A stretch of 64,000 nt of DNA from a virus. The DNA is taken from the IMG/VR virus record IMGVR_UViG_3300035698_022838, positions 62,001 through 126,000 of that record. The stretch is one strand, 5' to 3'. A program made the translations under genes and the position numbers. The notes beneath the pieces are model-generated. The model worked only from the letters and a program-made list of their open reading frames with translations. It was not told the DNA's origin and did no database searches. This document shows positions 5,965 to 59,213 of the stretch, piece after piece (position 1 is the stretch's first letter; each line of letters starts with the position of its first letter).

Positions 5965-5972
5965 TTTATTTT

Positions 5973-31426: not shown

Positions 31427-32929
31427 TTATCCATCAATAAGATTAATTGGAAATGCTTTAGGGAATTTACCTGCACTGTTTAAAACCCAATCTCTTTTCC
31501 TTAAATGTAAAACCTGATACATTCCACGGTGTGCTTCGTATTTTAATTCAATTCCCATTAGTATATAAACGCCAGATAAAAATCTATCAATCACTGGATT
31601 TATAGTTTCTTCTGGTTTTTCGTTATTAGATGCCCCAGTATTTTCTTTTCTTAATCCTTGATCATTTACGTAAATTACAACTGGGATAGCTTGTCCCCTA
31701 TAAATTCCATTATAATATCCATTAGTTTCGATTTTAAGGGTAAATTTATTTAGATCTTCTTTATTGAATTTATTCTGAATCAAAGCCTGTATAAAATTCT
31801 CATGAACTCCGCCAGGACCTTCCTCGTCATTCAGTGAACCATACCAATTTTTTCTAATATCCTTAGAATATTCATTTTCTATCGCTCTACCTTTTTGTAA
31901 AACCATATTTTCACCAACTATTTCAGTAGTTGAGGTTTCTATTGTATAGTTAATATACTTTTCAACTGGATTATCAGTTTTGAATCCATCATCATAGAAT
32001 TGGACTTCTTGTACGTACCCGCGATTATTTGTAATGTTTCCTGCTTGTGAAACTAGAGTATAATTAAGAATATATGTCGGCGAATCAAAAGAGCCTTTTT
32101 CATTTGTTAAAACTAATGGTACATCTTGTAGTGGGTTGTTTATACCAGGAAACAAAGTATCGTTGGCATTTCCGGTACCTAGTCCGCTAATAACTTTTAC
32201 TATTTGTATATAATCTTTAGCAGATAATTGATTGTCTAAATTAATGAAGGTTAAATTATAATATGGGTCTATCCAAGTACCAAAGAAACTTCGATCATTT
32301 TTATATGATCTACTAGTTACTTCTTTTATGAAATCATGAGCTGATAAATTAGGACAAATCCAAGTCATTTCATCATTAAGATTAGCATCATTAGTAGAAA
32401 ATCCAAGGTTTAATAGTTGTGAAACATCAAAAAGAGTGTCATATGATGTTTTTGTTCTGAATGCTTTAGAAACTTCACTATATAGACCTGGAATTTTTGC
32501 TTCACCTAATATACTAAACGTCATACCATTACCATCAGGATCACTTGATTGATTAGATCTAACTGATAATACATTAAAATCCATTCTTATTGGTTTATAT
32601 AACTCAATCCACGATCTAACATATACTGATATTACATCACCATCTTTAGGGTAAGAAACCCCAATAAATAACGAATTCTGCATATCAAATTGAATTCTTA
32701 CAGTAGGTAAAAATCCAGTCATATCAAGATTGAAATATGGCATGAATTTATGTACATAATATCCATTAATAAAAACTACCGGTACATAAGCGCCAAAAGA
32801 TTTTTCATCTGAATCTTGAGCTGCTGGAGCTCCTTCATTACCCCGTCCAGTTCGGTTAGGAACAACTAATTCGTCTAATCTTAATGTAGGTTTAGCTACA
32901 TTTCGTATAATTATTTCATCTGAAGCCAT
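31427..32929 (-). CDS. Probable baseplate hub protein, gp27-like (500 aa)
   Basis: The protein has an N-terminal beta domain (FINGYYVHKFMPYFNLDMTG; GDVISVYVRSW), then TSYDTLFDVSQLLNLGFSTN and WICPNLSAHDFIKEVTSRSY, a pattern I associate with gp27/gpD-type hub proteins, which form the ring that holds the spike. The remainder is beta-rich with a final strand GVYILMGIELKYEA near the C-terminus. It lies between the LysM baseplate gene and the 822-aa protein, two genes upstream of the spike, which is the expected neighbourhood. The family match is by pattern, so confidence is moderate. Confidence 0.55.
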   Translation of the reverse strand: MASDEIIIRNVAKPTLRLDELVVPNRTGRGNEGAPAAQDSDEKSFGAYVPVVFINGYYVHKFMPYFNLDMTGFLPTVRIQFDMQNSLFIGVSYPKDGDVISVYVRSWIELYKPIRMDFNVLSVRSNQSSDPDGNGMTFSILGEAKIPGLYSEVSKAFRTKTSYDTLFDVSQLLNLGFSTNDANLNDEMTWICPNLSAHDFIKEVTSRSYKNDRSFFGTWIDPYYNLTFINLDNQLSAKDYIQIVKVISGLGTGNANDTLFPGINNPLQDVPLVLTNEKGSFDSPTYILNYTLVSQAGNITNNRGYVQEVQFYDDGFKTDNPVEKYINYTIETSTTEIVGENMVLQKGRAIENEYSKDIRKNWYGSLNDEEGPGGVHENFIQALIQNKFNKEDLNKFTLKIETNGYYNGIYRGQAIPVVIYVNDQGLRKENTGASNNEKPEETINPVIDRFLSGVYILMGIELKYEAHRGMYQVLHLRKRDWVLNSAGKFPKAFPINLIDG

Positions 32930-36620: not shown

Positions 36621-37260
36621 TTTCTTCTATATTACTCATAACTGTTGATTCTTTCTTCCTCCCGTAATATTCGCGGATAGTATCACCTAATGCACCTTTT
36701 ATATCTTCTATATCCATACCTTCTGTAATGTAATTAACTATTTCTTCATCAGCATCGTCAAATGAAGCAGTCAATACACCATACAAATTCTTTGTTGGTA
36801 GATTCAATTTTAGATTAAGTGTAACATTAACCCAGTTAGTTTTTTGTTTTTTTAGTAATGTATATATCGGTGAATCTTCGACGGTAGCAGATGAAACTAC
36901 TGTATTTCTTCCCTGTACTACTTGATTAAGGTCTGTAATCGGTTGGTTTAGTTGATTTGGTTGTGACTCTGAATTAATACCATCAAAATCAACTTTGGTT
37001 GCTGGAAACAAATCTATAAACTCATCAAGTAGGGTTAAATTTATTCTTCCACTATCTTTAAATTCAACAAATATCAAATCCCCCTCTGCGGTAACGTCTG
37101 AATACTTTTCCATGTTACCCATGCGGTCACCTTTTTTCCACATGAAATCTTTGGTAGAGAGTTCAGCTTTAATCTCTTCTAAACTTTTATCTTTGAAATT
37201 CATTTTTATTCTTTTTTTATCAGAGAAGTATTTTTCTCTCCATTTTTTAAGCAATCGCAT
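36610..37260 (-). CDS. Hypothetical protein preceded by a rare Shine-Dalgarno (216 aa)
   Basis: It starts MRLLKKWREKYF, has an N-terminal beta part (GDLIFVEFKDSGRINLTLLD), a Gln/Asn-rich linker (QPNQLNQPITDLNQVVQG) and a C-terminal domain (VNVTLNLKLNLPTKNLYGVL, then EEIVNYITEGMDIEDIKGAL). No family is recognised. The start at 37260 is backed by GGAGGA just upstream, which is rare in this window. It begins a small-gene group running into the tail genes, after a 167-nt gap. Confidence 0.6.
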   Translation of the reverse strand: MRLLKKWREKYFSDKKRIKMNFKDKSLEEIKAELSTKDFMWKKGDRMGNMEKYSDVTAEGDLIFVEFKDSGRINLTLLDEFIDLFPATKVDFDGINSESQPNQLNQPITDLNQVVQGRNTVVSSATVEDSPIYTLLKKQKTNWVNVTLNLKLNLPTKNLYGVLTASFDDADEEIVNYITEGMDIEDIKGALGDTIREYYGRKKESTVMSNIEENEE

Positions 37261-37263
37261 TTA

Positions 37264-37269
37264 TCCTCC
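37264..37269 (-). promoter_or_regulatory. Shine-Dalgarno sequence GGAGGA
   Basis: GGAGGA on the minus strand lies 3 nt before ATG 37260. Nearly all other genes here have A/T-only leaders. Confidence 0.6.
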
Positions 37270-37380
37270 AAATAAAGTTGTACAGTTTACTCCTGCGCTA
37301 CGTATTTCTAAATACTATTATGGGTAGCATTCATTACGATTAAGATTTATACAATAAAAAGTTGGTTATGTTCCAATAAA

Positions 37381-37414
37381 TTATACTTTTGTTGCAAATT
37401 TTTGACGTGCGTTA
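37381..37414. repeat. Direct repeat, downstream copy (remnant of a gene 3' end)
   Basis: These 34 nt match 38324-38357 at about 31 positions in the same orientation. On the minus strand they would read NARQKFATKV-stop, versus NARQKFATKA-stop at the end of the intact 308-aa gene. The copy lies outside any gene, just after the 37428-38324 repeat-protein gene, so the two copies flank that gene. Confidence 0.85.
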
Positions 37415-37427
37415 CTCTAATAAACAT

Positions 37428-38324
37428 TTAAAACCCTATAGAACTAAGACCAGACACTAGATCCATTACTTTTTCATATTCCTTAGGAATTATTATATCT
37501 TTTCTAATATCTGCAAAATCTTCATTATTCCACATATCTTTAAGCATTATTATAACCCTACCTGGATTTAACTTAAGTTCTTTATTGAAATAATCAGGGT
37601 CCAATAAACTTAAAATAAGATCACTCGCTCTTTTCTTATCACTAATTTCGATATGGTATCCAGTTTCATAGTAATCAGTATCAATATTTCCATTAAGTAT
37701 ACGTAACCATGTTTCTATATTCCACCCAAATTCTTTATCTGGACGTATTAAAAAAGCATCACATTGAAACATTCCACCAATTTCATTTGGTGCTCCTTTA
37801 AGCGAGATCAAGCTATTACCGAAACACGAAAAATCTCCACCAACTTTATCTGGTGCTCCCTCTAAATTAATTAAATTATTTTCATAACAAAGAAAATCCC
37901 CAGGAACCTCTAGTGGTGCTCCTTTTAGTGTGGCTAGCTTATTGTTGGAGCAATCAAATAGATCACCCATATACTTTTTAGGAGACCCATCTAAAGTAGT
38001 TAGCATATTACTAGAACAATTAAACCATCCACCAACATATTCGGGTGCACAATCTAAAGAAATTAAATCTCTCTCGTAACAATTAAAATGTTCAGTAACC
38101 TGTCCAAATTTTATACCTTTTATCTTTCCAAACCAAACCATCTTTCCCTTGCTATTAGCAAAATCAAAGCTACCCTTTATATCTATAGTTCCATCAAGAT
38201 TTTCTTTCCAGGTTCCTGTTGTGCATTTATTCAGAAAATTAACTTGCCTTTTAGTTAGGTTACTATTTTCTTCAGTTGAATAGTTTTCGTATAATTTTAT
38301 ATGTTTCATATTCATTTTATTCAT
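37428..38324 (-). CDS. Leucine-rich-like repeat protein with CTS-like start, flanked by direct repeats (298 aa)
   Basis: Residues about 85-200 hold five or more repeats of about 20 residues, each with L-x-G/C-AP or L-x-GSP, then V/M-G-G/D-x-F-x-C-x-x-N-x-L (for example LKGAPLEVPGDFLCYENNLI and LEGAPDKVGGDFSCFGNSLI). This is a leucine-rich-like solenoid with regular Cys and Asn positions. The C-terminus (LNPGRVIIMLKDMWNNEDFA; DIIIPKEYEKVMDLV) is homologous to the 334-aa protein at 21894-22898. ATG 38324 overlaps the upstream stop by 1 nt (TAATG); a later ATG at 38309 gives MKHIKLYENY, the capsid-targeting-like form. Function is unknown. Confidence 0.65.
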   Translation of the reverse strand: MNKMNMKHIKLYENYSTEENSNLTKRQVNFLNKCTTGTWKENLDGTIDIKGSFDFANSKGKMVWFGKIKGIKFGQVTEHFNCYERDLISLDCAPEYVGGWFNCSSNMLTTLDGSPKKYMGDLFDCSNNKLATLKGAPLEVPGDFLCYENNLINLEGAPDKVGGDFSCFGNSLISLKGAPNEIGGMFQCDAFLIRPDKEFGWNIETWLRILNGNIDTDYYETGYHIEISDKKRASDLILSLLDPDYFNKELKLNPGRVIIMLKDMWNNEDFADIRKDIIIPKEYEKVMDLVSGLSSIGF

Positions 38325-38357
38325 TATGCTTTTGTTGCAAACTTTTGGCGTGCGTTG
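38324..38357. repeat. Direct repeat, upstream copy (3' end of the 308-aa gene)
   Basis: This copy is the coding 3' end of the 308-aa gene and pairs with 37381-37414. Confidence 0.85.
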
Positions 38358-39250
38358 GTATACATCTCCTCGATATGTGCCTCGGGGATTGTATTCTTTA
38401 ACATTTCCATGACTTGCTTAAGTTCTTTGGATTCTGTTTCGTGTCTAGATTTAATAGTATCTGATGCCTCATCATTTATGTCCCATTTATGATATTTAAA
38501 CAACTGCATCAGATGATCTACAAGGCCTCTTTGTTGTATTTCTGAATCGTGACCTAAACCAACTTTAATTAGATAAGATGTACTTGGACTACTTAATGCA
38601 TCATGTAAAGAATCATGTTCGCACTCATGAACACCACTTTTAGTTCTAAATTTAAAGCATGTTTTTCCACCTTTCTTTTTCATAGTAACAGCTGGATGTA
38701 TTTCATTCTCATTGGTATAAACTCTAAATCCTTTGAATGGATCTAATTTATCTCTTTTAGTTAGTTCTACTTGCATACCATTATCAAGATCAAGTTCATA
38801 TATGCCATTTGAAGTTTCCATAAATGATTTTGAGTTTGATTGTATTCCTAATAAATCACAAAGTATATTTGCATCTTCTTCAATATTATTGATTTTATCA
38901 TCAGACCTAAACATATCTTCTATATAGGATTCTACAAAAGTATCAAATGAATCAGAATTCTCTTGAGTTTTAAACCAATTCATATCAGTTTTAATATTGA
39001 CAACATCAAACTCTGGTGATGATTCATCAATATCACAACATTTTTCTGGTATCGAAACTGAATTGTTTCTGTACTTCATTGCAACATTACCATCATTAAT
39101 ACCATAGGATAAATGCTTCTCTCCTTTCTTAGGTATTCTAATCTTTAACGTATTATCATCTAATGGTCCTATTATACCAATATCACTTTTTCCTTGCATC
39201 TTTGATTCATTTATGCTGGAATATTCAGAAAAATAATATATTTTATTCAT
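38324..39250 (-). CDS. Hypothetical capsid-internal protein candidate with CTS-like N-terminus (308 aa)
   Basis: ATG 39250 (MNKIYYFSEYSSINE) overlaps the upstream stop by 8 nt, a spacing used repeatedly here; an earlier ATG at 39271 would extend far into the previous gene. The N-terminus fits the aromatic-rich peptide ending in INE, with possible cleavage after E15. Residues about 195-240 (VTMKKKGGKTCFKFRTKSG) look like a small beta domain, and the C-terminus is helical (HETESKELKQVMEMLKN). No family is recognised. Its last 11 codons are repeated downstream of the next gene. Confidence 0.6.
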   Translation of the reverse strand: MNKIYYFSEYSSINESKMQGKSDIGIIGPLDDNTLKIRIPKKGEKHLSYGINDGNVAMKYRNNSVSIPEKCCDIDESSPEFDVVNIKTDMNWFKTQENSDSFDTFVESYIEDMFRSDDKINNIEEDANILCDLLGIQSNSKSFMETSNGIYELDLDNGMQVELTKRDKLDPFKGFRVYTNENEIHPAVTMKKKGGKTCFKFRTKSGVHECEHDSLHDALSSPSTSYLIKVGLGHDSEIQQRGLVDHLMQLFKYHKWDINDEASDTIKSRHETESKELKQVMEMLKNTIPEAHIEEMYTNARQKFATKA

Positions 39251-41634: not shown

Positions 41635-42330
41635 TTAATCACCCAAACTTTTACCATCGGTAGTACCTAGTGAATTTTTACTTCCTCCGCCTATAGAACT
41701 TAGCTTATTCATAAAAGTAGTTAATATATTTTCAGGCTCTGCTTGTTTAGAGGTTAATTTAGTTCCCTTCTTTTCCATTTCATCTCTTAGTGTCCTAGCC
41801 ATTTTACTTTTTTCTCCACCATCTAACGATTTTACAAAATCGTCGCCAGTGGTTGGTTTAAAATCACCAAACACACCAAGATAAAAAGCTTCAAGTTTTT
41901 CTCTAAATTCTGCTTTTTTGGTCTCGTTGCTGAACATTTCAGCAATTGTTCTATATAGATAACCAGTTGGATCAATCCCTAAATTCTCAGCAATACCATC
42001 TAAACCTTTTTCAACTAAAAATTCCATAGTAGCATCAGCAGCCTTTGGTGCTAAATATTCTGGTTTTGCTTTTGCACCAAACATAATAGGAACGAAATCC
42101 ATTATAGGTATCTGTTCCACAAAGTTTTGTACTAGTTTACTGAAAATGGAGGTTTCCATTATACCAAGGTGACTAAGAAGAAATGCTGAGATCTTACCTT
42201 TAATAACATCAGTGATTGAATCATACCCTTTACCTAATAGGGTACCAATGTTATCAAACAGACCTTCATCTAATCTAGTTTCTGGATCCAACTTACGAAA
42301 GTCGTTGAAATTCTTTATATTATTATTCAT
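41635..42330 (-). CDS. Candidate capsid-internal protein with CTS-like N-terminus (231 aa)
   Basis: The N-terminus NIKNFNDFRKLDPETRLDEG has the F-x-x-F core and an LDE motif, with possible cleavage after E22. The mature part begins with helices (IGTLLGKGYDSITDVIKGKI, then FLLSHLGIMETSIFSKLVQN), hydrophobic and amphipathic, then ends in a polar Gly/Ser tail. No enzyme motif is seen. It is first behind a promoter candidate at 42351-42358 and cotranscribed with the 116-aa gene. Confidence 0.6.
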   Translation of the reverse strand: MNNNIKNFNDFRKLDPETRLDEGLFDNIGTLLGKGYDSITDVIKGKISAFLLSHLGIMETSIFSKLVQNFVEQIPIMDFVPIMFGAKAKPEYLAPKAADATMEFLVEKGLDGIAENLGIDPTGYLYRTIAEMFSNETKKAEFREKLEAFYLGVFGDFKPTTGDDFVKSLDGGEKSKMARTLRDEMEKKGTKLTSKQAEPENILTTFMNKLSSIGGGSKNSLGTTDGKSLGD

Positions 42331-44443: not shown

Positions 44444-46846
44444 TTAATTCTCATTTTTTCTGAGAATTTCAATATTCTTTGATATTGATGGTTTAATATC
44501 ATCTACCTCAGAAATTTCAATTCTTGTTAAATGCTTATCTTTTGCATTTGTAATATACTTTATCTTCTTTAGAGTTTCGCCTACTTTATCAATAGTATTA
44601 TCTTTCATACCATTATTAATCTCATCAAAGCCAATAACTTCTATTCCTGAATTTTCCTTACTTCCGATCTTACTCTTTAGGAAAGTAAGATTTTCTTTAC
44701 TTAATGTTCCTTTTTTACCAAATGTTTTGTTCTTCACAATTGTTTTTAACATTTCAGTTGGTTGGGTTTCGAACTTTTCTGCCATATAATCTAGAGCACA
44801 AACCCAATTTTTATCCTTAGCATCATATGTAATTAAATATGATAATAGTATACAAACATTATAAATAAATCTTAATTCATCAGGATCTAGATTCTCTGGA
44901 TTTATTTTTGAACCAGCTATACTTTTTATTGCCTGGTAAATATCATTAAAATCATCAGGTCTTAAGTAACCTTCTTCTATATCCTCTTTATGTGGTCTGA
45001 TTGCATCCATAACTGAATTGTATGAAATTTCTATATCAGAACCTCCATTCTTTGCCATTCTCATATTATAATCTAATACATCATCCACAAGATTTACTTT
45101 TGATTCCTTTTCCACACCAGCAAAATTCTTATAATATGAGGTATACCATTTACCAAAAGCATTTATATCTTCTTCGTCATCACCATTAATTTCACTATAC
45201 TTTGACCAGTTACATGGCTTATTCACATTAGACTCGGTTCTTTTGGTTGAGTATAATCCACCATTACCATCTTCGTCCTCGATGAAGAAATAAGAATTCT
45301 TTCTGTCACCTCTAACTGCTTCTATCCAGGAACTTAAAAACTCATGCGGGTAAGAACCTTTTAAGCTACCATCATCCCTAAGAAAATCTTCGCTTTCAAC
45401 GTGCTTATTATAACCTTTTGTTCTTAATAGTTTAGCTAGTTTTTCAGCTAATGCTACTTCAGTCTTTGCTGCATGTCCAGGATCATCTGATGATGCTGGT
45501 CCAAGTTCTTCAGAATATTTTTTAATCTCCTCCTCTATCTCATCAGGATCAATGTATGTTGATTCTAACATTTTCATAAATCCGCTAGATTTTAATACAG
45601 ATCTAGATTCACTAATACTAGAATAATATTTCCTTAATTTAGCTAAACTGTCTTTTATAGCATCTTTATCATCTTTTGAAACCTGGTCTAGCTTCAGTAT
45701 AGAATCTAACATTGCTTTGTCGAACTTACCATCGGCATTCTTATTACCTAACGTACCCTGTATGGTCTTAATAGCTACAGAGGTCCCAGCTTCAAATTTA
45801 CCATCTGCTCCACCTCTAGGTGAAAGTAAATTCTTAATAGGTACGTAAGCATTTATTAGGGCCTTCTGTAATGCTTCAATTATACCAGAGCCTTTTAATC
45901 TAGCATCAGCATCTTTATCCCCAATCTTAAGTGGAAAAACCCTATCGTTCATTTTAGATTCTTTTTCCTCTAAATCTTCCCTGATCTTTACCTCTGCTAT
46001 TCCTTCTTGTGTAAATGCTTTAGTAATATAGTCCAATGCATCAGTAAGAATATCATTTAGATCACCAAACTTCTTTCCTAAATCTTCATCTTTTGCAATT
46101 TTCTTCATTATCAATTCAGTTGCCTTAACTTTATATTGACTATATTCTTGCGAAAGATTATCAACTTTCTTCTCTAGTTCAGCTAATGTTTTTCTATCCG
46201 ATTCTTTTATAGTTGCTTTTTCAAGATCCATTGCCTTGGTTTTTTGCTCTAAAGTACTAAATAATCTATTCCAATCTCTACCATAACCATTCTTTGCATC
46301 CTTTCCTTTAGAATCAGATATTAGATTAATCAGAATTTTTTTAAGTCTATCAGCTCTACCATGAAAACCTATCATCAAAGATTCATTTAAGGCTTTTTCC
46401 ATTTCTCTTGCAATAGCATCCATAGTTTTCTGTACCTTATCGCCATTGGATATAAATTTATCTATAATCTTAGCTTCTAAGGATGGATCTAATTCAACAG
46501 CTCTTTTGATTGCATCACCTATTTTATCTATGCTCTCAAGGTATAATTTTTTAATCTCAGCATAACCAGGATCAATCAATTCAACATCAGTAGCATGATC
46601 TTTTATTTTTGCGAGCATACCTTTTACGCTAGATGAATTACCAACATCTTCTATCTTAGATCTAAATGAATCAGGATTTCTATTTTTATTAGAAGCTACA
46701 TCAAAAACTATTTTTTTGAATGCGCTAAGTAATAGCTCATTCGTTTTCGATAATAAATCATTAACGTCTTCGTTTTCGAATAATCTATACGTATCTATAG
46801 AGATCTGTTTTGCAACAGGATTTGTTTTTAAATAGTCGTTTTTCAT
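44444..46846 (-). CDS. Large candidate capsid-internal protein (800 aa)
   Basis: I chose ATG 46846 (MKNDYLKTNP), 1 nt after the previous stop; an upstream frame extension overlaps the 89-aa gene. Near residue 21 RLFENEDVND offers an LFE site, and near residue 165 KALNESLMIGF offers an LNE site, both fitting the protease consensus. The protein is long, charged and helical (KTKAMDLEKATIKESDRKTL; LEEKESKMNDRVFPLKIGD), with a C-terminal region of mixed helices. No enzyme family is recognised. It is last in an operon whose four products all start with targeting-like peptides. Confidence 0.6.
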   Translation of the reverse strand: MKNDYLKTNPVAKQISIDTYRLFENEDVNDLLSKTNELLLSAFKKIVFDVASNKNRNPDSFRSKIEDVGNSSSVKGMLAKIKDHATDVELIDPGYAEIKKLYLESIDKIGDAIKRAVELDPSLEAKIIDKFISNGDKVQKTMDAIAREMEKALNESLMIGFHGRADRLKKILINLISDSKGKDAKNGYGRDWNRLFSTLEQKTKAMDLEKATIKESDRKTLAELEKKVDNLSQEYSQYKVKATELIMKKIAKDEDLGKKFGDLNDILTDALDYITKAFTQEGIAEVKIREDLEEKESKMNDRVFPLKIGDKDADARLKGSGIIEALQKALINAYVPIKNLLSPRGGADGKFEAGTSVAIKTIQGTLGNKNADGKFDKAMLDSILKLDQVSKDDKDAIKDSLAKLRKYYSSISESRSVLKSSGFMKMLESTYIDPDEIEEEIKKYSEELGPASSDDPGHAAKTEVALAEKLAKLLRTKGYNKHVESEDFLRDDGSLKGSYPHEFLSSWIEAVRGDRKNSYFFIEDEDGNGGLYSTKRTESNVNKPCNWSKYSEINGDDEEDINAFGKWYTSYYKNFAGVEKESKVNLVDDVLDYNMRMAKNGGSDIEISYNSVMDAIRPHKEDIEEGYLRPDDFNDIYQAIKSIAGSKINPENLDPDELRFIYNVCILLSYLITYDAKDKNWVCALDYMAEKFETQPTEMLKTIVKNKTFGKKGTLSKENLTFLKSKIGSKENSGIEVIGFDEINNGMKDNTIDKVGETLKKIKYITNAKDKHLTRIEISEVDDIKPSISKNIEILRKNEN

Positions 46847-46847
46847 A

Positions 46848-47117
46848 TTAATAAATATTTGTCTTATCACCAGCGTCTTCTTTAGATAATATTGCATTGG
46901 CAAATCTATTCAAAAGTACTGGCATTTGTGAATATAAAGATGCTTGTTTCTTTAAACTTGCAGCTTCATCAGCAGGAGTTTCTGCATCCTTTCCATTTCT
47001 AACCTCTTCCGAAATCTCTTCCTTCTTAGTATTAATAGCAGCTCTTGCTTCAGTAACATCATTATTTACACTTTCGTCTATATGGAAATCTTCCCATTGT
47101 TTCAATTTATTATGCAT
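46848..47117 (-). CDS. Small candidate capsid-internal protein (89 aa)
   Basis: I chose ATG 47117 (MHNKLKQWEDFHIDES), which overlaps the upstream stop by 8 nt, the same overlap used by other genes here; a TTG at 47129 would add four residues. The W-E-D-F-x-IDE peptide is one of the cleanest copies of the targeting consensus, with cleavage expected after E15. The mature part would be a short Ala/Glu/Lys-rich helical peptide (AETPADEAASLKKQASLYSQ). No family is recognised. Confidence 0.65.
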   Translation of the reverse strand: MHNKLKQWEDFHIDESVNNDVTEARAAINTKKEEISEEVRNGKDAETPADEAASLKKQASLYSQMPVLLNRFANAILSKEDAGDKTNIY

Positions 47118-47994
47118 ATCTTCTAGCAATAGTTATTTTAGTTCTCAAATCCCTAATTTGTTCCATTAGTAATTCTCGAATTTCTTTAATGTCTTTGACG
47201 ATTTGTTCCTTGTCTGCTCCTTCCTTATCACCTTTATCCTCCAGCTTTTCCTTTTCGAGATCTAACGTAACATATCTCTCATTCCTTTCAGTTATAAGAA
47301 AACTTACTAATTTCTTTGCACTTGGCTTATCTAACCCCTGTGCAAATTTAGTAAATTGTGCTGCGTTCATACCTAAAAGAGGATCGATATTAAACTTTTT
47401 CTTACTTTTAGAAGCTGGTTCTATTTCTTTATCTACCTCTTTAGCTTTTTCAAGATCACCGAATCTTTCTCTAAATAATCTATCCTTCCTTTTGGCTTCT
47501 AGTGCTGCAGTTTTATATTTATCGTATAATTCATCAGCAACTGATTCATCAGTTAATTCTTTAGCAAGTTTATACAAAGCTTCTGCCAATTCTGCTTCAA
47601 GTTCAGATTTCTTAAGATTCCAATATGATATAAGTCTTTGGTTACCCTCAGTAATTTTTTCAACCTTATCATCAATTTTATCTACGTCTGCAGTTTTCTT
47701 CTTAAGTAATGCAGTTAATAATTTTTCATTTCGGTCAATCATTCTTTCGAGCTTTTTAATCTCTGCAGCATCACTTTTAGTTTGTGCTTTTTTAATTTCC
47801 AACGAATCTATATCTGTTTGTATTACATTCCACTCATCTGTATATTCGGTTTCAATTTTGGAAATTCTGGAAAGTAAAGCATCTATTTTACCTATAGAAC
47901 CACCGAAATTTGCACTAAGCCAATTTACGATTTTCTCCATTGGTTTAATACCTTCATTTATTTCCTCGTCCCATTCTTTAAATTTCAATAACAT
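47110..47994 (-). CDS. Candidate capsid-internal coiled-coil protein (294 aa)
   Basis: The N-terminus MLLKFKEWDEEINEG has the F-x-x-W core and INE, with cleavage expected after E14. The remainder is almost entirely coiled coil (IEKIETEYTDEWNV-type heptads; LERMIDRNEKLLTALLKKK; ELEAELAEALYKLAKEL), with DPLLGMNAAQFTKFAQG as a possible break. It has no enzymatic motif. It is the second gene of the internal-protein operon, 3 nt after the first. Confidence 0.65.
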   Translation of the reverse strand: MLLKFKEWDEEINEGIKPMEKIVNWLSANFGGSIGKIDALLSRISKIETEYTDEWNVIQTDIDSLEIKKAQTKSDAAEIKKLERMIDRNEKLLTALLKKKTADVDKIDDKVEKITEGNQRLISYWNLKKSELEAELAEALYKLAKELTDESVADELYDKYKTAALEAKRKDRLFRERFGDLEKAKEVDKEIEPASKSKKKFNIDPLLGMNAAQFTKFAQGLDKPSAKKLVSFLITERNERYVTLDLEKEKLEDKGDKEGADKEQIVKDIKEIRELLMEQIRDLRTKITIARRYA

Positions 47995-47997
47995 AAT

Positions 47998-49080
47998 TTA
48001 AGCTAGTTTTTTTATTAGAGTTTTTATTTTATCAACACCAGGTTTACTTATAATTTCAGCAACATCTAGACTTAATCCACTATCCATTTCCTTACCAGTC
48101 AATATCGCATTCTTAATATTACTTAGTATATTAGAAAATCCAGACGAATTAGCAAGTTTCTTATCGATTGATAATTTAGTTTTACCAACTTTTTTATATT
48201 CGTTATATAGATTTTTTAGCATATCAATTTCATTAGCTAAACCTTTAACTTTATTCAAATCAACTTTTGTTGGTTTACCCGAGGTTAAATTCTTCTCTAT
48301 AGCTCTAAGTCTTTCTCTACAGTCTTTTTTTACTATTGTAAATTTTTCCTTAGTTTTTTCTTTCAATAATAAAATAATATCAGCATCTTTTTCTGAAATC
48401 TTCTTTCTGAGATCTGTTATCTTAGTAAGCTTAATTTCACCCATATTTGTTATTTTTGCTGATTTACCGGATACATCAGTTGATGTGTCTTTGATATCAG
48501 CTTCTGCTTTTTCTACTTTTTCCTTAGCTATCTTAACCTCATCAGCATCATAATGCTTAGATTTAATAAGATCATATTCGAATTTAGCAAGTTCATATTT
48601 ATCATCAATTAAACCAGCATCATAGTATTCCTTTCTTCTTGCATTTCCTGCTATAGCTTTATCAAGGATTTTCATACCTTTAGCAATCTGCATTCTTTTA
48701 AGTTTTACGAAAGAATTATATTCCTTTTTCTTAGTTGCTATATCTCTTTGTAATTTTGGTGCTTTGTTATCTTTATCATAACCTCTCCTTTCCTTATATA
48801 CAGCATCTTCTAGTTTTTCAACCTCGTCGTTGATTTTATCCTTTTCTTTAATGATCTCTTTTTCTATACCAATATTACCTTTGCGTATCTCATCAATTAC
48901 ACTGAGCTTAGATAACTTACCAAATACGGTTTTATCTAAAGAATTTTTTAAAGCATCTAATGCCTTTCCTTCGTTTAGACCTTCATATTCTAAATATAGA
49001 TCTACTGATATCGAATCGTTTATAGGTTCTGATAAATCCCTTTCTATTAAAAATTCATTATGATTTAGTATTCTGTCCAT
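47998..49080 (-). CDS. Candidate capsid-internal coiled-coil protein (360 aa)
   Basis: The N-terminus MDRILNHNEFLIERDLSEP has the H-N-E-F core followed by LIE, and a second, stronger site (YEGLNEGKAL) at E37. The mature protein would be a long Lys/Glu/Asp-rich coiled coil (KEIIKEKDKINDEVEKLEDA; KAEADIKDTSTDVSGKSAKI). No family is recognised. It is the first gene after the promoter candidate at 49113-49120 and leads the operon that ends at the terminator 44393-44418. Confidence 0.65.
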   Translation of the reverse strand: MDRILNHNEFLIERDLSEPINDSISVDLYLEYEGLNEGKALDALKNSLDKTVFGKLSKLSVIDEIRKGNIGIEKEIIKEKDKINDEVEKLEDAVYKERRGYDKDNKAPKLQRDIATKKKEYNSFVKLKRMQIAKGMKILDKAIAGNARRKEYYDAGLIDDKYELAKFEYDLIKSKHYDADEVKIAKEKVEKAEADIKDTSTDVSGKSAKITNMGEIKLTKITDLRKKISEKDADIILLLKEKTKEKFTIVKKDCRERLRAIEKNLTSGKPTKVDLNKVKGLANEIDMLKNLYNEYKKVGKTKLSIDKKLANSSGFSNILSNIKNAILTGKEMDSGLSLDVAEIISKPGVDKIKTLIKKLA

Positions 49081-49230: not shown

Positions 49231-49932
49231 ATGAAAAAGAAAATGTCATATTTATTTTTATTCTTAGCAATCTTCGCACTAACATCATTTCAGAATACAT
49301 ATCGTATTGCTAATAAAGGAGCAAATGTAACACAAAGTATGAAATTCAACGTTATTACTATAGATAAGGATGAGATGGATTTTAGTGTATCTGAAAAAAG
49401 ACCTATTAATGCAGATTTCTACATTAATAGTAATTTCTTTACGACAGGAGCAGATCCTATTGGTTTAGTAGTAATTGATGGTAAAAGAAAAAGTAAAAGA
49501 ACCAAAGGTGGCGGATTTTTCTATGTTGCTAATGGTAAAGCAATGGTAAAAGCAAAACAGTGTCCAACAATAACACAATATGCATCACAAACTATTCTAT
49601 GGGGAATTGATAATGGTAAAAGAAACATAGGATTATGTAAGACTACACATGGAAATCAAATAAGATACCGTACGATAATGGGTGAAAATAAGAAAGGGCA
49701 AATAGTAATTATCTCATCAAATAGATTAGGTAGAGTAACAATAGACGAGATAATCACGTTTGCTGAAAAAGTAGGATTAACCGAAGCAATCCTACTTGAC
49801 GGAGGAACTTCAGTCGATTATAAATTCTCTGGTGAAAATAAAACAGTTTATTTCCAATCAGTTCCTGATATAGGGAAAAAAATGTTTGATATTATAACAC
49901 CAACAACATATATTTGTGGAAATTTTAATTAA
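49231..49932 (+). CDS. Secreted NAGPA/DUF2233-type phosphodiester glycosidase-like protein (233 aa)
   Basis: The N-terminus MKKKMSYLFLFLAIFALTSF is a signal peptide or membrane anchor; no lipobox Cys follows. The body fits the phosphodiester glycosidase (NAGPA/DUF2233) fold: ADFYINSNFFTTGADPIGLV at about 61-80, RYRTIMGENKKGQIVIISSN at about 145-164, and AILLDGGTSVDYKFSG at about 186-201 (the family's L-D-G-G-x-S). Enzymes of this fold remove sugar-phosphodiester groups. An exported copy could act on a periplasmic or surface polymer during infection. It is plus-stranded and convergent with the lysin gene, sharing 4 nt at the stops. Substrate and timing are unknown. Confidence 0.75.
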   Translation: MKKKMSYLFLFLAIFALTSFQNTYRIANKGANVTQSMKFNVITIDKDEMDFSVSEKRPINADFYINSNFFTTGADPIGLVVIDGKRKSKRTKGGGFFYVANGKAMVKAKQCPTITQYASQTILWGIDNGKRNIGLCKTTHGNQIRYRTIMGENKKGQIVIISSNRLGRVTIDEIITFAEKVGLTEAILLDGGTSVDYKFSGENKTVYFQSVPDIGKKMFDIITPTTYICGNFN

Positions 49933-51797
49933 GTAATACATCTAAAAGACTTAATACGCTCAACAACTTCTTTAACATAATTATGTGTTCTTATATCAAC
50001 TTTTGGTTTGTACCACACATCCTCGCTTTTACCATAATTAGGTAAATAATTTTCAACATGTCTATCTGAAACTGTTTTACCATTTTTAAGCGTTTTTCCC
50101 TCGAGCGAACATGAAGCTTTTATATCAGGATCTGAGGTTTCGCAATATTTCCTGATTTTTGTCATACCGCAATTATATGAGCCAATTGCAATATCCAATG
50201 CTGCATTACCAGTACCATATTTAAAATTTGATGATGGTTTATGCTCAGAATATCCAGTCTCAACAGCTTTCTTATATGCTTTCTCTATATACATATATGC
50301 AGCTATTAGTGCACCTTTTAAGGTAAGTATATTTTCTTTTACCCCGAGTTCATCTTTTGTAGTCATTTTCATTTGGGCAGGACCTATTGAAGTACCATAG
50401 CCTACTACAGAAGCAAGTATTTCTGGAACATATATTGACCAATATCTTTTTCCTTTTTCAAAGCTACTTTCTCTTCCTATAATACCTAATGCAACTTTTA
50501 AGGTATCTTTATCATAACCTTGTTCAATTAGATCATCAGCAATATATCCAAATTCTTTATCTGGTAAACATTTATACCTTCTTTCTAATTCTTTATCATT
50601 AAGTTTTTCTAAATCTACACTTTTAATATTTAAAGCTACGTCTAAATCTACATCTAGTTTTTTACTAAAAGCTTTTAAATCACTATCGGTTAAACCTAAA
50701 TCTACTCTTTCAGCCTCGTTCAAAAAAAAATCCTCTGATTCATTCAATAATGGAACTGCTTTAGGTTTTCTTTTAGGTCTCCTAACCCAAGCTATTTTAG
50801 AATGCCCATGGATTTTATTAGCAGGATCAGAATATATCCTGCCATATACATTATGTAAAATCAACGGTACACCATCTTTAATTGCACCAACAATACCAAC
50901 ATGAGTATTCATACCAAATGCATCACCGTTAGTAAGTGTTTTACCAGGGGTAACCTTACCGTCTTTATTGGTAATAAAATATGGTTTACTTCTAAACCCT
51001 TTGTTTTCTCCGCCCCTATAAAGTGCTACCTCGTGATAGTTTGAATCTGGATAAAATAAACCAACAACATCACCTAATTGTAATTTTACATTAGGTTTAT
51101 CTGGGATTAGTTTATCTATTATTTTCTTAGCCTTTTCTACGTATTTTCCTTTATAGACACCACCGCCATTTCTATGTATAGCTCCCCACATAGCAGTAAT
51201 TCTGTTTATCTCATTTTCATCAAGATCAGTAAATGCACTATAAATTCTCTTACCTAATTTTTCATTAGCGTGTGCCAGCCATGCATCACCAACACCATCA
51301 ATATCATCACTGAAAAGGTTAACGAATGAAGCACAACCTATATCTTTATTTATTTTAAATATCAATACTGAATCCTTTGGACTTATTTTATCTGCGTGCA
51401 TTTTTTCTAAATATTCAGGATTAGTATCTTTATTAACTAAAACCGTAGTTGGTATTTCATTAGGACCTATAGGATATGGATCATTAGTGAATGGATCACT
51501 TGCCATAGCAGCTTCATGATCATAGCTAGACTTCTTAGAACCTATTTTAACTCCTATCTTAGCAGCTTTTGGATCTAATTGTGCAGGTGCTCCTTTAGGA
51601 AAATATTTCTTATTAAGTTTGGCTACCGCAGATTTGATCTTTGTGATATCTCTCCAAGATCCCTTTGAGGTCTTCCTTTTAGTTAACCATTTACCATTAT
51701 CAAATTTATAATCCCAGACGGTATCAAAATCCTGATATACTTTTGCTTCTGATACATTTGAATTTGAAAAATCTTTGAAATTTATAGCTTTATCCAT
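49929..51797 (-). CDS. Two-domain peptidoglycan hydrolase: NlpC/CHAP-like plus transglycosylase/lysozyme-like, with CTS-like start (622 aa)
   Basis: The N-terminal peptide MDKAINFKDFSNSNVSEAKV fits the targeting consensus (F-K-D-F, VSE, E17). Residues about 150-340 look like a Cys/His peptidase or amidase: KDIGCASFVNLF (C155), LGDVVGLFYPDSNYHEVALY and GMNTHVGIVGAIKDGVPLIL (H299), then a late HN. Residues about 405-545 look like a lytic transglycosylase or lysozyme: ALGIIGRESSFEKG (E443 likely catalytic), SIGPAQMKMT and AIGSYNCGMTKI. Between the domains LLNESEDFFLNEAERVDL holds two perfect [LI]NE sites (after E353 and E361), so processing could release two enzymes. It has its own promoter candidate and lies after the capsid gene. 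Confidence 0.75.
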   Translation of the reverse strand: MDKAINFKDFSNSNVSEAKVYQDFDTVWDYKFDNGKWLTKRKTSKGSWRDITKIKSAVAKLNKKYFPKGAPAQLDPKAAKIGVKIGSKKSSYDHEAAMASDPFTNDPYPIGPNEIPTTVLVNKDTNPEYLEKMHADKISPKDSVLIFKINKDIGCASFVNLFSDDIDGVGDAWLAHANEKLGKRIYSAFTDLDENEINRITAMWGAIHRNGGGVYKGKYVEKAKKIIDKLIPDKPNVKLQLGDVVGLFYPDSNYHEVALYRGGENKGFRSKPYFITNKDGKVTPGKTLTNGDAFGMNTHVGIVGAIKDGVPLILHNVYGRIYSDPANKIHGHSKIAWVRRPKRKPKAVPLLNESEDFFLNEAERVDLGLTDSDLKAFSKKLDVDLDVALNIKSVDLEKLNDKELERRYKCLPDKEFGYIADDLIEQGYDKDTLKVALGIIGRESSFEKGKRYWSIYVPEILASVVGYGTSIGPAQMKMTTKDELGVKENILTLKGALIAAYMYIEKAYKKAVETGYSEHKPSSNFKYGTGNAALDIAIGSYNCGMTKIRKYCETSDPDIKASCSLEGKTLKNGKTVSDRHVENYLPNYGKSEDVWYKPKVDIRTHNYVKEVVERIKSFRCIT

Positions 51798-51890: not shown

Positions 51891-53594
51891 TTATGCTATA
51901 CCGCCTAATGGGATATTAACATGGAATCCAATATACATTGTTTCTGGATGGAAGCCTGCTTCCACTAGAGCGTATCTAGATTTAACTGCAATCTTAGGAG
52001 ACATTGTACCTTCTGAGATTGTTTGGATTGATTCTGCCATCATATAAGGCATGAATTTTAGACCTGGTTCATCATCACCACCTTTTCTTCCAATAAGTAC
52101 TCTATTATCGTTGAACTTCATGTTTTGATCAACATATACAGTCATACCTGCAAGCGAACCTACTGGGTAAAGTGTACCGTTGTTTTGAGTCAATGTGTTA
52201 GAGAATGGAGCAAAAGTGAACTGAGAAATATCTTGCAATGCACTTGCAACGTTAGCGTTAGTAACGATGAAGTTAGCAGGACCTCTTCTTCCTCTGTTAG
52301 ATACTACGTTAGCAGCAGCTAGAATTCTAGAGAATAATCTTCTTTGTAGAGTTGATAAGTTCTCATATGTTCCTGTAGCAGGGCCAGCAGGAGCACCAGC
52401 AGTACCAACAACGCTTGTAACTGCGTTATCATCTTTACCAATATAAGAAGGTATAGTATAACTACCAGCAGTACCACCAATAACTAGGTTAAGGTTTAAA
52501 AGCTGACCTTCAGTTGTATAAAAATCACTGTGATTTGACCAACCTAAAGCAAATGCTCTAGAAAGGATATGCTTATTAATAGCCTGAGAAACCTCGTTAA
52601 CAAGTGCGTTCTCGATCATAGAAATAACATCGATACCGAATTGCTTGTTAAGGTCTTGGATTTGCTCAGTTGTCACTGAAGCAGCTACTTGGAAAGTGTC
52701 AGCCTCAACGAATTTCGTGAACGTTGAAAGTCCCATTGACTGGTAGTAATTAGTCTCACCATATGCTCTTAACATTGGATTATATGACTTAGTACCGTCA
52801 ACAAATGGTCCTTGCCAGTCGTCAGTATTCTGGAAACCAGCTCCAGAGAAACCTTGAATATGATCTTCAAGTGCTTTTACTAGTTCTGCAGAAGCAGTAG
52901 TACTACCAACTTGAGCTCCGTCAAGTGCATTACCAATCTTAGTTGCTCCACCATCAATAACTGAACCAATTGATTCACCTGCTGTAAGAGCAGTAACTTT
53001 AAATATTGGGTAGCAGTCAATTCTAGAAAGACCAATAAACTCAGTAGTAATATATGCACTAGCTGAAGTTGCATTAGTGATATAGAAAGTTGTACCAACT
53101 ACAAGAAGAGCCATTGATGTTTGAGTAGTAACACGTACTTTGATCATTGTAGGTGCAGCAGCAAGTGCGTCAGCAGCTGTGCTTCCTACGCTTGTTGGAC
53201 TTAATTTTCCACCTGCGTATACGTAATCTAAATAAGATAGTACGCCTGTAGGTCCAGACATTGGGATAACAGGTACGATGTCAAATCCAACAGTCTTCGC
53301 AGCTACCTGAATAGCTAATGGAAGTAATGAAGGAAATTTATCACCTGATCCTTGATTTGATGTGGTATAAAAACCAGCATTTGCGTTACCTGTAGTAGGG
53401 AACGTTGGAGGTGCAACTGCACCCATGCCATTCACAACGTTCAGAGACTGATATGCACCAGCTGATTCGTTTAATGAATGATAATGGCAATACTTAGATA
53501 GCCATTCTTTTTTTTCGGTATCTACGATTCCGGCCTTCTGCTCAATTATAGGAGACCATGTTTCGAAAATTTCCGCTTCGTTAATTAATTTCAT
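51891..53594 (-). CDS. Major capsid protein, gp23-like (567 aa)
   Basis: A T4-type HK97-fold capsid protein. The N-terminus MKLINEAEIFETWSPIIEQK is followed by HYHSLNESAGAYQSLNVV, where LNE (E43) is the expected prohead-protease site, as in gp23, which loses its first 65 residues. Later conserved parts include PLAIQVAAKTVGFDIVPVIP, MSGPTGVLSYLDYVY, LNKQFGIDVISMIENALVNE, NRGRRGPANFIVTN and FHPETMYIGFHVNIPLGG. It is a little longer than gp23 (521 aa). The gene follows protease-scaffold by 19 nt and ends in a strong terminator. The codon choice is less A/T-biased than its neighbours (more CTT, GCA and GTA), as expected for a highly expressed gene. Confidence 0.93.
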   Translation of the reverse strand: MKLINEAEIFETWSPIIEQKAGIVDTEKKEWLSKYCHYHSLNESAGAYQSLNVVNGMGAVAPPTFPTTGNANAGFYTTSNQGSGDKFPSLLPLAIQVAAKTVGFDIVPVIPMSGPTGVLSYLDYVYAGGKLSPTSVGSTAADALAAAPTMIKVRVTTQTSMALLVVGTTFYITNATSASAYITTEFIGLSRIDCYPIFKVTALTAGESIGSVIDGGATKIGNALDGAQVGSTTASAELVKALEDHIQGFSGAGFQNTDDWQGPFVDGTKSYNPMLRAYGETNYYQSMGLSTFTKFVEADTFQVAASVTTEQIQDLNKQFGIDVISMIENALVNEVSQAINKHILSRAFALGWSNHSDFYTTEGQLLNLNLVIGGTAGSYTIPSYIGKDDNAVTSVVGTAGAPAGPATGTYENLSTLQRRLFSRILAAANVVSNRGRRGPANFIVTNANVASALQDISQFTFAPFSNTLTQNNGTLYPVGSLAGMTVYVDQNMKFNDNRVLIGRKGGDDEPGLKFMPYMMAESIQTISEGTMSPKIAVKSRYALVEAGFHPETMYIGFHVNIPLGGIA

Positions 53595-53613: not shown

Positions 53614-55647
53614 TTAAAGCTTACCTTCGAGCGACTTCGCGACCCATGCTAGGTAATCATTTGAATACCCTTGTGGGCTTTTCGTCGTTGCCGACTCTGG
53701 TGTTTCCTGACCTTCGTTCAGTTTCTGAAGTCCGACTGGTTTAGCACCAAGTTGACGAGTTGACCAGAAATTCTTAATTTGGTACTCAGTGTCTAAGTTA
53801 TAGAAAGAAGCTTGAGCAATCACAGATTGCTTTTGTCCCTCATTTAGACCTTCCCAAAGTTCAGAATATGCTGATGGTATTTCATCAATAAATTTGTAAC
53901 CTGATGTTTCAGTGTTTTCTTCGTTTACCGCACTTACGGTCGTTTCTGCTTTTTGTGTTTGAGCAGTAGGCTCGACTTTCGTCTGTGCCTCATTTATATT
54001 ATCTTCAGTCTTTTGTGTTTTGACTGATTCTATCAATGAATCGATTTTATTACCAAGTGATGAATAATCACCTGCAAAACCAGATTCTACTAATTCTACT
54101 TTAGATGCACCTTCTGCGTTTTCTCTTGCGCTTTCATTTAAGGATGGTGCTGCTGTTCCTAATGATTCTGAGATTGATCCAACCTCATCGATATTTGTAT
54201 TCAATTTTTCTGCAATGTAATCTGAATAAGCTATACCTTTATTAAGGCCTTCTGCAATATACTCACTATAAGAAATTCCTTTATTAAGGTTTTCTGCAAT
54301 ATATTCGCTATAATTAATATCATTTTCTAATTTCTCTGCAATATATTCTGAATAAGCTATTCCCTTATCTAAATTCTCTGCCAAGTATTCTGAATATGAA
54401 ATTCCTCTATCTAAATTCTCTGCTAAGTATTCTGAATATGAAATGTTCTTACCAAGATTTTCTCCTAAATATTCTGAATATTGTAAACCATCATCGATTT
54501 TTTCTGCTAGATACTTAGAATAAGAAATGTTCTTATCTACACTTTCAGCAACATATTCTGAATATGAAATTCCTTTATCAACGTTTTCTGCAACATACTT
54601 AGAATAAGAAATATTCTTGTCTAGATTTTCAGCAATATACTTAGAGTAAGAAATACTACTATCTAAATTTTCTGCTAAATATTCGCCGTACTTAATTGCA
54701 CTATCAAGGTTTTCTGCTAGATAACCTGCGTATTTTTCAAGTTTAGTAACCCTTTCTTGTAGGGATATATCTTCAGGTGACGATTCAATGGCTTCGGGGG
54801 ATTCTACCTCAGAAGATTCCGCGACCGCTCCTACTTGTTTCATTTCACTGATCTGTCCTTCGAGTTTACCCATTGCTTCTTTAATAAAAATGGAATATTT
54901 GTTTAACTCTTCAGCAGTTACATATTCTTTGTTAGACTCCATAATGTCGGATTTATTTTTTTCTTGATCAAAAATCTTTTGAAATTCTTCGTTATTCTCA
55001 ACACTATATATCTTTACGTTTGACTCATTTTCGATACCAAAAGACTCATTTATACATTCTAGTGAATTAACCAATGAATTTTTACTCCTTGTTTCCATGA
55101 AATCTGCGTCTAAACCGCAACTTTCATACACTCTTTCAAGTTGTGCATCTGGAAATCCAGGGTCAGCTACTAAGTCATAGGTAAAGATTTTTTTAATCTG
55201 TACTTTCTTATCTGGACCAACATTTCCTGCTGCTCTTGATGAAATAGACAGTGGTATACCCTCGTCTACTAGTTTCTTAGCAATTTGTCCTGCTGGGGTA
55301 TCAAGTAATTTTACCTTAATCTTTAAAACTCTACCAGCCTCGTCATATTCTAGGTTTTCTATAACATGGGAAATATTCTTAAGAGATATGTCAAATTTCT
55401 CAGGGTGATCTAATTCACCAACGAGTCTTTTCTTACTCATTTTGGTTTTAAGATAGTCTAAATGAGGAAGATATTCGCCTTCTTCATAAATCCTTTTGTT
55501 ATTATTCTCTTTACCAAACTGAGCTGCAATACCCTGAAGAATATACTCATCGTTATTCCCAGTCTCTACCTTAGAAACAGTTAAACTGTTGTCTTGCTTT
55601 TCTAAAATAAAGAGTAATTGTTCTTCTATTGATGGAAGCTCTTTCAT
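53614..55647 (-). CDS. Prohead protease (gp21-like) fused to a scaffold region with 13 tandem repeats (677 aa)
   Basis: Residues 20-170 are a gp21-type serine protease of the phage prohead family: RLVGELDHPEKFDI holds the catalytic His (H81), PLSISSRAAGNVG the Ser (S136 or S137), and FTYDLVADPGFPDAQL the closing motif. From about residue 245 the protein is acidic and helical. Residues 305-486 are thirteen 14-residue repeats of type ISYSEYLAENLDKG. The C-terminal 150 residues (EIPSAYSELWEGLNEGQKQS, WSTRQLGAKPVGLQK) look like scaffold. Five [LI]NE sites (INESF, LNESA, INEAQ, two LNEGQ) fit self-digestion of the scaffold, as happens to T4 gp22. T4 has separate genes 21 and 22. Confidence 0.85.
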   Translation of the reverse strand: MKELPSIEEQLLFILEKQDNSLTVSKVETGNNDEYILQGIAAQFGKENNNKRIYEEGEYLPHLDYLKTKMSKKRLVGELDHPEKFDISLKNISHVIENLEYDEAGRVLKIKVKLLDTPAGQIAKKLVDEGIPLSISSRAAGNVGPDKKVQIKKIFTYDLVADPGFPDAQLERVYESCGLDADFMETRSKNSLVNSLECINESFGIENESNVKIYSVENNEEFQKIFDQEKNKSDIMESNKEYVTAEELNKYSIFIKEAMGKLEGQISEMKQVGAVAESSEVESPEAIESSPEDISLQERVTKLEKYAGYLAENLDSAIKYGEYLAENLDSSISYSKYIAENLDKNISYSKYVAENVDKGISYSEYVAESVDKNISYSKYLAEKIDDGLQYSEYLGENLGKNISYSEYLAENLDRGISYSEYLAENLDKGIAYSEYIAEKLENDINYSEYIAENLNKGISYSEYIAEGLNKGIAYSDYIAEKLNTNIDEVGSISESLGTAAPSLNESARENAEGASKVELVESGFAGDYSSLGNKIDSLIESVKTQKTEDNINEAQTKVEPTAQTQKAETTVSAVNEENTETSGYKFIDEIPSAYSELWEGLNEGQKQSVIAQASFYNLDTEYQIKNFWSTRQLGAKPVGLQKLNEGQETPESATTKSPQGYSNDYLAWVAKSLEGKL
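54190..54735 (-). repeat. Thirteen in-frame 42-nt tandem repeats in the scaffold region
   Basis: Each unit encodes 14 residues of type SYSEY(L/I/V)AEN(L/V)DKG(I). Copies differ at many synonymous and some coding positions. The regular aromatic-Glu/Lys-aromatic spacing suggests a solenoid or coiled rod. First unit at 54735 (KYAGYLAENLDSAI), last ending at 54190. Confidence 0.95.
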
Positions 55648-58421: not shown

Positions 58422-59213
58422 TTATTCGGAATAAATCCTGGAATAAGCTTTAGAAGCTAAATCTATTAGCTTCTCTATATATCCTTCATTTCTGAGCTTT
58501 TTAAAGGCGAGATTACCAATAGAAAGTTCTCCTCCATCGGAAAGTCCTTCCTTTCTCATCTTCTGTATTTTCTCTTTGAGTTTCAGTAACCTATCATAAA
58601 GCTCTTTCGCATCTTTAGGTAGATCCGGAATTAATATAAGTTTAGATTCTAATTTGTTTAAATCAGAAACTATTCCCTCGAATTTTTTATTAACGTCCTG
58701 ATCATCAATATCTGGTGGATTAAATTTAGGTTTTTTAATCCATTTATTTTCTTTTAGCGAATATAAACCAGATGCAACATGAGGTTCTTTAGTATCTTGG
58801 ATATAAAGTTCAACATCATGCCCTCTCATAACTATATCATGTCTTAGATTCCAAATAAATCTAACACCATCTACTGCTGCTTTTGTAACTTTCTTTGGTG
58901 CTTTTATTTTATTCAGGTCAATTAGTACATGTATATCTAAATCTGATTTAGACGTATATGTGTAATTAGCACTAGAGCCGGTTAATTGAATATCATCTAT
59001 TGGGGTAGTACCAAGAATATCATCGAATTTCTCATAGAAATCCTTAGCTATTTTCAAAAGTTTCTTTCTAACTAATGAATCGAAGACCCATTTTACTTCT
59101 CCATCCTTCTTTTTATACCTATCCCAAAATTTTGGATTAAGTTCGTCATTATAGAAGGATCCTATTTTCTTCTCGTTTATAGAGAAATCTTTAAAGTCTT
59201 TTACTGTATTCAC
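58422..59213 (-). CDS. Nucleotidyltransferase-fold protein with CTS-like start (263 aa)
   Basis: The motif TGSSANYTYTSKSDLDIHVL (G79-S80, D91, D93) is the nucleotidyltransferase core hG(G/S)...DhD, and GHDVELYIQD supplies the third acid (E135). The fold transfers NMP to protein, RNA or small molecules. The N-terminus VKDFKDFSINEKKIG is an exemplary targeting peptide with cleavage expected after E14. The start is GTG 59213 (the first codon of the peptide MNTVKDF), supported by the promoter core 19 nt upstream and by the peptide. The C-terminus is helical. Target is unknown; a packaged, injected modifier of host proteins or tRNA, like T4 Alt in logic only, is inference. Confidence 0.75.
   Translation of the reverse strand: MNTVKDFKDFSINEKKIGSFYNDELNPKFWDRYKKKDGEVKWVFDSLVRKKLLKIAKDFYEKFDDILGTTPIDDIQLTGSSANYTYTSKSDLDIHVLIDLNKIKAPKKVTKAAVDGVRFIWNLRHDIVMRGHDVELYIQDTKEPHVASGLYSLKENKWIKKPKFNPPDIDDQDVNKKFEGIVSDLNKLESKLILIPDLPKDAKELYDRLLKLKEKIQKMRKEGLSDGGELSIGNLAFKKLRNEGYIEKLIDLASKAYSRIYSE

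Follow-up and report, generated by a model that had tools for sequence, protein, structure and literature searches.

In phage T4, the prohead protease gp21 cleaves after the sequence L/I-X-E and propeptides serve as capsid targeting sequences, while the packaged internal protein IPI acts in the cell on restriction enzymes (PMC9026906). For phage P1 DarB, an N-terminal peptide of 30 residues suffices for loading into the head (PMC9024508), which is a parallel for N-terminal head loading although DarB is an antirestriction protein and not a lysin. The heads of phage T7 store the SLT-type enzyme gp16, whose ejection serves to open the wall (PMC8954989). One half of the lysin described here is of the SLT type like gp16, which has no peptidase partner; the proposed role of the lysin, wall opening at infection, is that of the tail lysozyme gp5 of T4, which is part of the baseplate and not head cargo. 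T7 gp16 belongs to the ejectosome of short-tailed phages and is not known to be released by a prohead protease. CwlT-like enzymes join muramidase-type and NlpC/P60 domains; they are bacterial and secreted, their domain order is opposite to that of the lysin and, to our knowledge, they carry no protease sites. In the limited literature searched, wall hydrolases with targeting tags were not found to be reported from the heads of T4-like phages, and none of the known parallels unites protease-split lysins with head targeting.

The window analyzed here comprises 64,000 nucleotides, bases 62001-126000 in a viral record of 162,880 bases, and comes from a T4-like phage, whose capsid protein matches gp23 and whose next gene matches the S80/S77 prohead proteases. 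Its capsid protein shares 39-40% identity with the capsid proteins of Lak megaphages and 47% with that of a 462-kb uncultured phage. The prohead protease (53614-55647) is fused to a long series of repeats of the YSEYLAEN type, as if protease and scaffold were combined in one protein; its counterpart in Tenacibaculum phage PTm1 is annotated as scaffolding protein and protease. The lysin, a protein of 622 aa, is encoded 93 bases behind the capsid gene (Table 1). With T4 and its proteins IPI-IPIII and Alt, this phage has in common a gp23-type capsid, an S77/S80-type protease, short sites ending in glutamate and N-terminal propeptides on the cargo. It differs in that the proposed cargo is a single chain made up of two wall enzymes, with the sites placed between its domains, known T4 cargo not being described as wall-degrading in the literature searched. 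We consider it probable (roughly 0.6) that the lysin is head cargo of the T4 internal-protein kind, comprising two wall enzymes which are cut by the protease and open the wall at infection.

Table 1. Features of the lysin locus and associated genes, in window positions; a slash marks the cleavage position
Feature	Position	Strand	Basis
gp5-like hub without lysozyme domain, 222 aa	28261..28929	-	match to phrog_430 limited to profile positions 16-113 of 868
Inner-head-type protein, N-terminal propeptide EINE/G	47110..47994	-	motif in homologs
Inner-head-type protein, N-terminal propeptide	47998..49080	-	directly after major capsid protein in 63/66 relatives
NAGPA-family phosphodiester glycosidase, exported-type hydrophobic N-terminus	49231..49932	+	PF09992 3e-13, convergent
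Two-enzyme lysin gene	49929..51797	-	full-length fused homolog L147/L166, fused L169
SLT-type transglycosylase domain, residues about 401-622	49932..50597	-	family alignment; sub-cut-off PF01464, weak Foldseek
Inter-domain linker, residues about 344-400	50598..50768	-	low model confidence
Putative prohead-protease site 2, L359-N-E361/A362	50712..50723	-	motif count, matrix rank
Putative prohead-protease site 1, L351-N-E353/S354	50736..50747	-	motif count, matrix rank
Cys/His peptidase domain, residues about 117-343	50769..51449	-	alignment, AlphaFold, LysM/PG_binding_1 in homologs
N-terminal targeting-like peptide, residues 1-17, MDKAINFKDFSNSNVSE/A	51747..51797	-	like tags of relatives' hydrolases; scores weakly
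gp23-type major capsid protein, site SLNE/SAG	51891..53594	-	PF07068 2e-40; motif in 76/77 homologs
Prohead protease (S80/S77), repeat-rich C-terminal part, five sites	53614..55647	-	profile matches, motif

No match was obtained when the lysin was queried against Pfam, PHROGs and PDB sequences, or when phage records were searched by tblastn with the protein whole and in parts. It was likewise not found in 50 related phage records or by peptide-pattern scans, and hhalign of its single domains against the CHAP/SLT profiles of relatives gave nothing. The family was opened by scanning for codons that spell the motif IGPAQMK, which led to contig L135. Its gene 5415-6272 aligns to lysin residues 369-620 (37%), the adjacent gene 6281-7480 to residues 64-340 (35%), and a convergent gene of the NAGPA family is 56% identical to that of the window. 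Further contigs were obtained by profile scans and the three parts were mapped by profile searches, revealing a module which is present in about 14 distinct phages and consists of peptidase, transglycosylase and a convergent NAGPA glycosidase of the exported type. A gp23 gene is shown in ten module contigs, and the capsid gene is of the gp23 type wherever one was detected. In most module phages the two enzymes are products of adjacent separate genes, which in L135/L146 and others lie beside the convergent NAGPA gene with the domain order of the lysin; in three they are fused, namely in the window, L147 (651 aa) and L169 (599 aa), and BLAST aligned L147/L166 with lysin residues 23-621 at 35%. 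The lysin gene is a fusion of two adjacent genes which are separate in most module phages. The NAGPA gene is linked to the lysin enzymes in most module contigs. Most NAGPA copies have an exported-type N-terminus, some resembling lipoprotein signals, and by hydropathy no signal peptide is present on the lysin.

The second half of the lysin carries the marks of family 1 SLT enzymes, a catalytic glutamate in an ES-type motif (RESSF), G-x-x-Q (SIGPAQ) and YN (SYN), and in a ten-member family alignment R442, E443, S470, G472, Q475, N542 and Y607 are conserved. The Pfam SLT profile did not match the window protein; four family members matched PF01464, with E 9e-4 at best, of which the two inspected closely lie below the cut-off, and members of the family match PHROG endolysin and transglycosylase families. 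The Foldseek matches were weak, perhaps because the query was the whole two-domain model. Cell-wall hydrolases and lytic transglycosylases were nevertheless prominent near the top, among them MltF, CD630_03720, Tse3, Slt and a viral LT_GEWL protein (E 0.013, probability 1.00), and a further weak match was to CwlT-like bifunctional hydrolases (PDB 4hpe) at E 0.9. The first half displays the NlpC/P60-CHAP pattern of a cysteine, a downstream histidine (HxGIV) and a third polar residue, as C155, H299 in NTHVGIVG and H315-N316, invariant in four members; in the same four-member alignment H255 and E256 are also conserved. Among family members neither a CHAP nor an NLPC_P60 profile matched, only Amidase_6 at E 0.038 in L169. 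Because no significant profile or fold match was obtained, the peptidase is named NlpC/P60-like and not filed as a member. The family is tied to peptidoglycan by the LysM (5e-23, on the L163 peptidase, judged by its sequence) or PG_binding_1 (1.6e-13) domains found on homologs.

Modelling with AlphaFold gave a pLDDT of 80.5 with a 21-member alignment and 32.9 with the single sequence. In the model with homologs both domains lie mostly above about 85-90, and residues 351-400 have means of about 44-58. By its sequence, then, the lysin is a Cys/His peptidase joined to an SLT-type lytic transglycosylase, with predicted muralytic activity. The two hydrolase domains claimed in the first-pass annotation thus stand, the SLT half through its sub-threshold Pfam and weak Foldseek matches and the peptidase half through its conserved Cys/His/Asn residues and the peptidoglycan-binding domains of homologs, but the latter without a match to an NlpC/P60 or CHAP profile. 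The fragments proposed there (18-353 and 362-622) agree with the modelled domain borders.

The linker reads ...KAVPLLNE/SEDFFLNE/AERVDL, with both putative sites between the domains. The lysin holds two copies of the motif [LIVM]NE[SGA] where shuffles predict 0.07, and the whole contig holds 25 where 10.4 are expected. As a consensus, [LIVM]NE/[SGA] had only been presumed, and it was tested in 80 relatives found through the capsid protein. Among the N-terminal 60 residues it is present in 76/77 homologs of the major capsid protein (shuffled expectation 0.5); for the two inner-head genes that come after the capsid gene in relatives, the corresponding counts are 48/58 and 43/62. At any position of the protein it occurs in 57/57 proteases and 58/60 homologs of gene 44444-46903, while unrelated neighbouring non-head genes are near background; it is a genuine head-protein signal among the relatives. 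A site-scoring matrix, trained on the proteins of relatives only, was applied to the contig proteome, where SEDFFLNE/AER and KAVPLLNE/SED rank 13 and 18 of 50,491 positions; a second-best site this good occurred in 0 of 2,000 shuffles. Shuffle and matrix statistics agree on the two perfect linker sites reported in the first-pass annotation, which lie after E353 and E361, and through them the lysin bears the mark of a T4-type internal protein, a site of the phage's own consensus. The linkers of the other two fusions contain generic [LI]xE sites only, which were not counted because [LI]xE often arises by chance (by a rough estimate about 0.4 per 40-residue linker). The head-cargo reading is favoured since two exact matches to the clade consensus fall exactly in the linker, around which the homolog-aided model folds the domains confidently. 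The linker was also considered as a complete internal targeting peptide, its end SEDFFLNE/A resembling TFDDFLNE/S, but the core matrix gives no support and this remains a suggestion.

A targeting-like peptide had been noted at the start of the lysin. The sequence looks like one, but it scores weakly, with a core shuffle P of 0.07 and a cleavage site which the matrix ranks 91st; the N-terminal peptide shared with head proteins, weak in the lysin, is clear in homologs and in the other hydrolases of relatives. Most of the separate module enzymes start with a short peptide ending in xE, and the SLT gene of L154 starts without an obvious tag. The L158 peptidase and an unrelated lipocalin-like neighbour have only their first 36 residues in common (67% identical), and over its first 28 residues the L160 SLT enzyme matches the L158 peptidase (71% identical); in this sense the peptide is modular. 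In the 50 records of relatives of the window, a targeting-like N-terminus ending in [LIVF]xE was found on 11/11 CHAP and 9/9 non-membrane SLT enzymes (for example MEKLKSFSEFLAE/A and MGKIKSFNEYINE/N), by a tag pattern which was drawn up after viewing these hydrolases and which matches 13/160 contig genes. Six other SLT enzymes of relatives have a membrane anchor and no targeting-like start. The tags on all 20 CHAP and non-membrane SLT enzymes argue for the lysin as head cargo, as do the separate tagged genes and the modular peptides.

Several further proteins are of note. Among relatives of this phage (L092-L118, records G022-G049) a single record can hold as many as three tagged CHAP/SLT hydrolases, and in G035 and G036 a tagged SLT gene lies close to a tagged CHAP gene. 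In the window, a nucleotidyltransferase-like protein (58422-59213) has the head-targeting-like start TVKDFKDFSINE/K and is a possible injected enzyme. Outside the window, the three small proteins encoded at G000 31577-32098, 41653-42177 and 45452-45940 have the tag-like starts DFSNYINE/S, NFIEFINE/A and TFDDFLNE/S, respectively, and are possibly more head cargo. The product of G000 135793-138594, 933 aa in length, contains several protease sites that fit the consensus strictly or nearly so and is perhaps a scaffold or core protein.

In 63/66 relatives the capsid gene and the homolog of 47998-49080 are separated by a median of 96 bases. In the remaining three, a DUF7487-related gene is located at this junction (L046 2053-3852, L059 11808-13526 and L080 11826-13565); the DUF7487 protein of the window is encoded at 22952-24259. 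Since the capsid gene of relatives directly precedes the 47998-49080 homolog, the lysin and NAGPA genes are regarded as an insertion at a junction that takes other genes too. In L157-L159 the module follows the capsid gene at a distance of about 2 kb, in a close run of genes, which also favours head cargo. The untagged L154 SLT gene, the weak tag of the lysin, the generic linker sites of the other two fusions, the drawing up of the tag pattern after the hydrolases had been viewed and a distance of 19-36 kb between the capsid gene and a non-adjoining module in several phages weaken this reading.

The neighbouring exported glycosidase raises the question of a conventional late endolysin module, in which both enzymes would act at lysis with NAGPA (or GH25) and the sites would be incidental. 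The two wall enzymes adjoin that glycosidase, the NAGPA slot of L158 (6727-7404) holds a GH25 lysozyme with a hydrophobic N-terminus, and several of the PHROG families matched by homologs are named endolysin. It is nevertheless an unlikely explanation, given the targeting-like N-termini of most separate enzymes, the strict sites placed exactly at the linker, the position of the lysin in the head cluster and a separate Amidase_2 enzyme in the contig, which has neither tag nor signal and is a candidate for the ordinary endolysin. That candidate and the missing signal peptide of the lysin are further reasons for preferring head cargo. At G000 37181-38425, which lies outside the window, an ORF with a tag (MNEKIKSFENFLLE) is followed, after a single TAA stop, by an Amidase_2 ORF in frame with it. 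A reading of the two as one was rejected, the stop between them being TAA, the main stop of the contig.

The spike had been said to lack the lysozyme domain of T4 gp5, and indeed the match of the gp5-like hub to the hub/lysozyme profile is confined to the N-terminal part of that profile. Such a hub would suit a tail or baseplate enzyme which replaces the gp5 lysozyme and never enters the head, tail-borne wall hydrolases being a common solution in phages. Similarity of the lysin to tail proteins was not found, however, and the prohead-protease sites and the head-cluster position indicate the head, so that we give this possibility very little credence. Among the tail and baseplate genes, window 26453-27622 shows two matches to the S1 RNA-binding domain (PF00575, 1e-15).

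The fusion, the domains, the sites and the linkage are evident from the sequence, and packaging, cleavage, ejection and the compartment of action are inferred. The precursor would enter the prohead with the scaffold, and the prohead protease would trim its N-terminus after E17 and cut the linker after E353 and E361. The mature head would then hold the Cys/His peptidase (about 18-353) and the SLT transglycosylase (about 362-622), and both enzymes would exit before or together with the DNA and breach the wall at infection, making up for the lysozyme that the baseplate hub lacks. The loading of the lysin into the capsid and its cleavage into two enzymes, as first proposed, appear well supported, if indirectly, by the site statistics, the position behind the major capsid gene, the tagged two-gene forms and the 20/20 tagged hydrolases, but not by the lysin's own weak tag. 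The enzymes may act at genome entry and may take the place of the gp5 lysozyme. Packaged IPI of T4 works inside the cell against restriction enzymes (PMC9026906), and wall action would therefore need release in the periplasm. By the same precedent the lysin could be cargo for the host cytoplasm or another task rather than for wall opening at entry, which is improbable in view of the LysM and PG-binding domains of homologs, as these indicate intact peptidoglycan as the substrate.

More broadly, and at slightly less than even odds, large gp23-type relatives may encode several wall-opening enzymes per genome as head cargo that the protease releases, instead of a baseplate lysozyme; in a few lineages a two-enzyme polyprotein would be split during head maturation, its linker a doubled site and possibly a relic of the targeting peptide of the second enzyme. 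If the head-cargo reading is true, long-tailed phages would have another way to breach the wall, in which the enzymes are kept in the head and set free by the maturation protease instead of being fixed to the baseplate, and a phage polyprotein would be divided by the prohead protease into two working enzymes. Proteins left blank by standard searches would gain testable names, and targeting peptides might serve to load proteins into very large phage heads.
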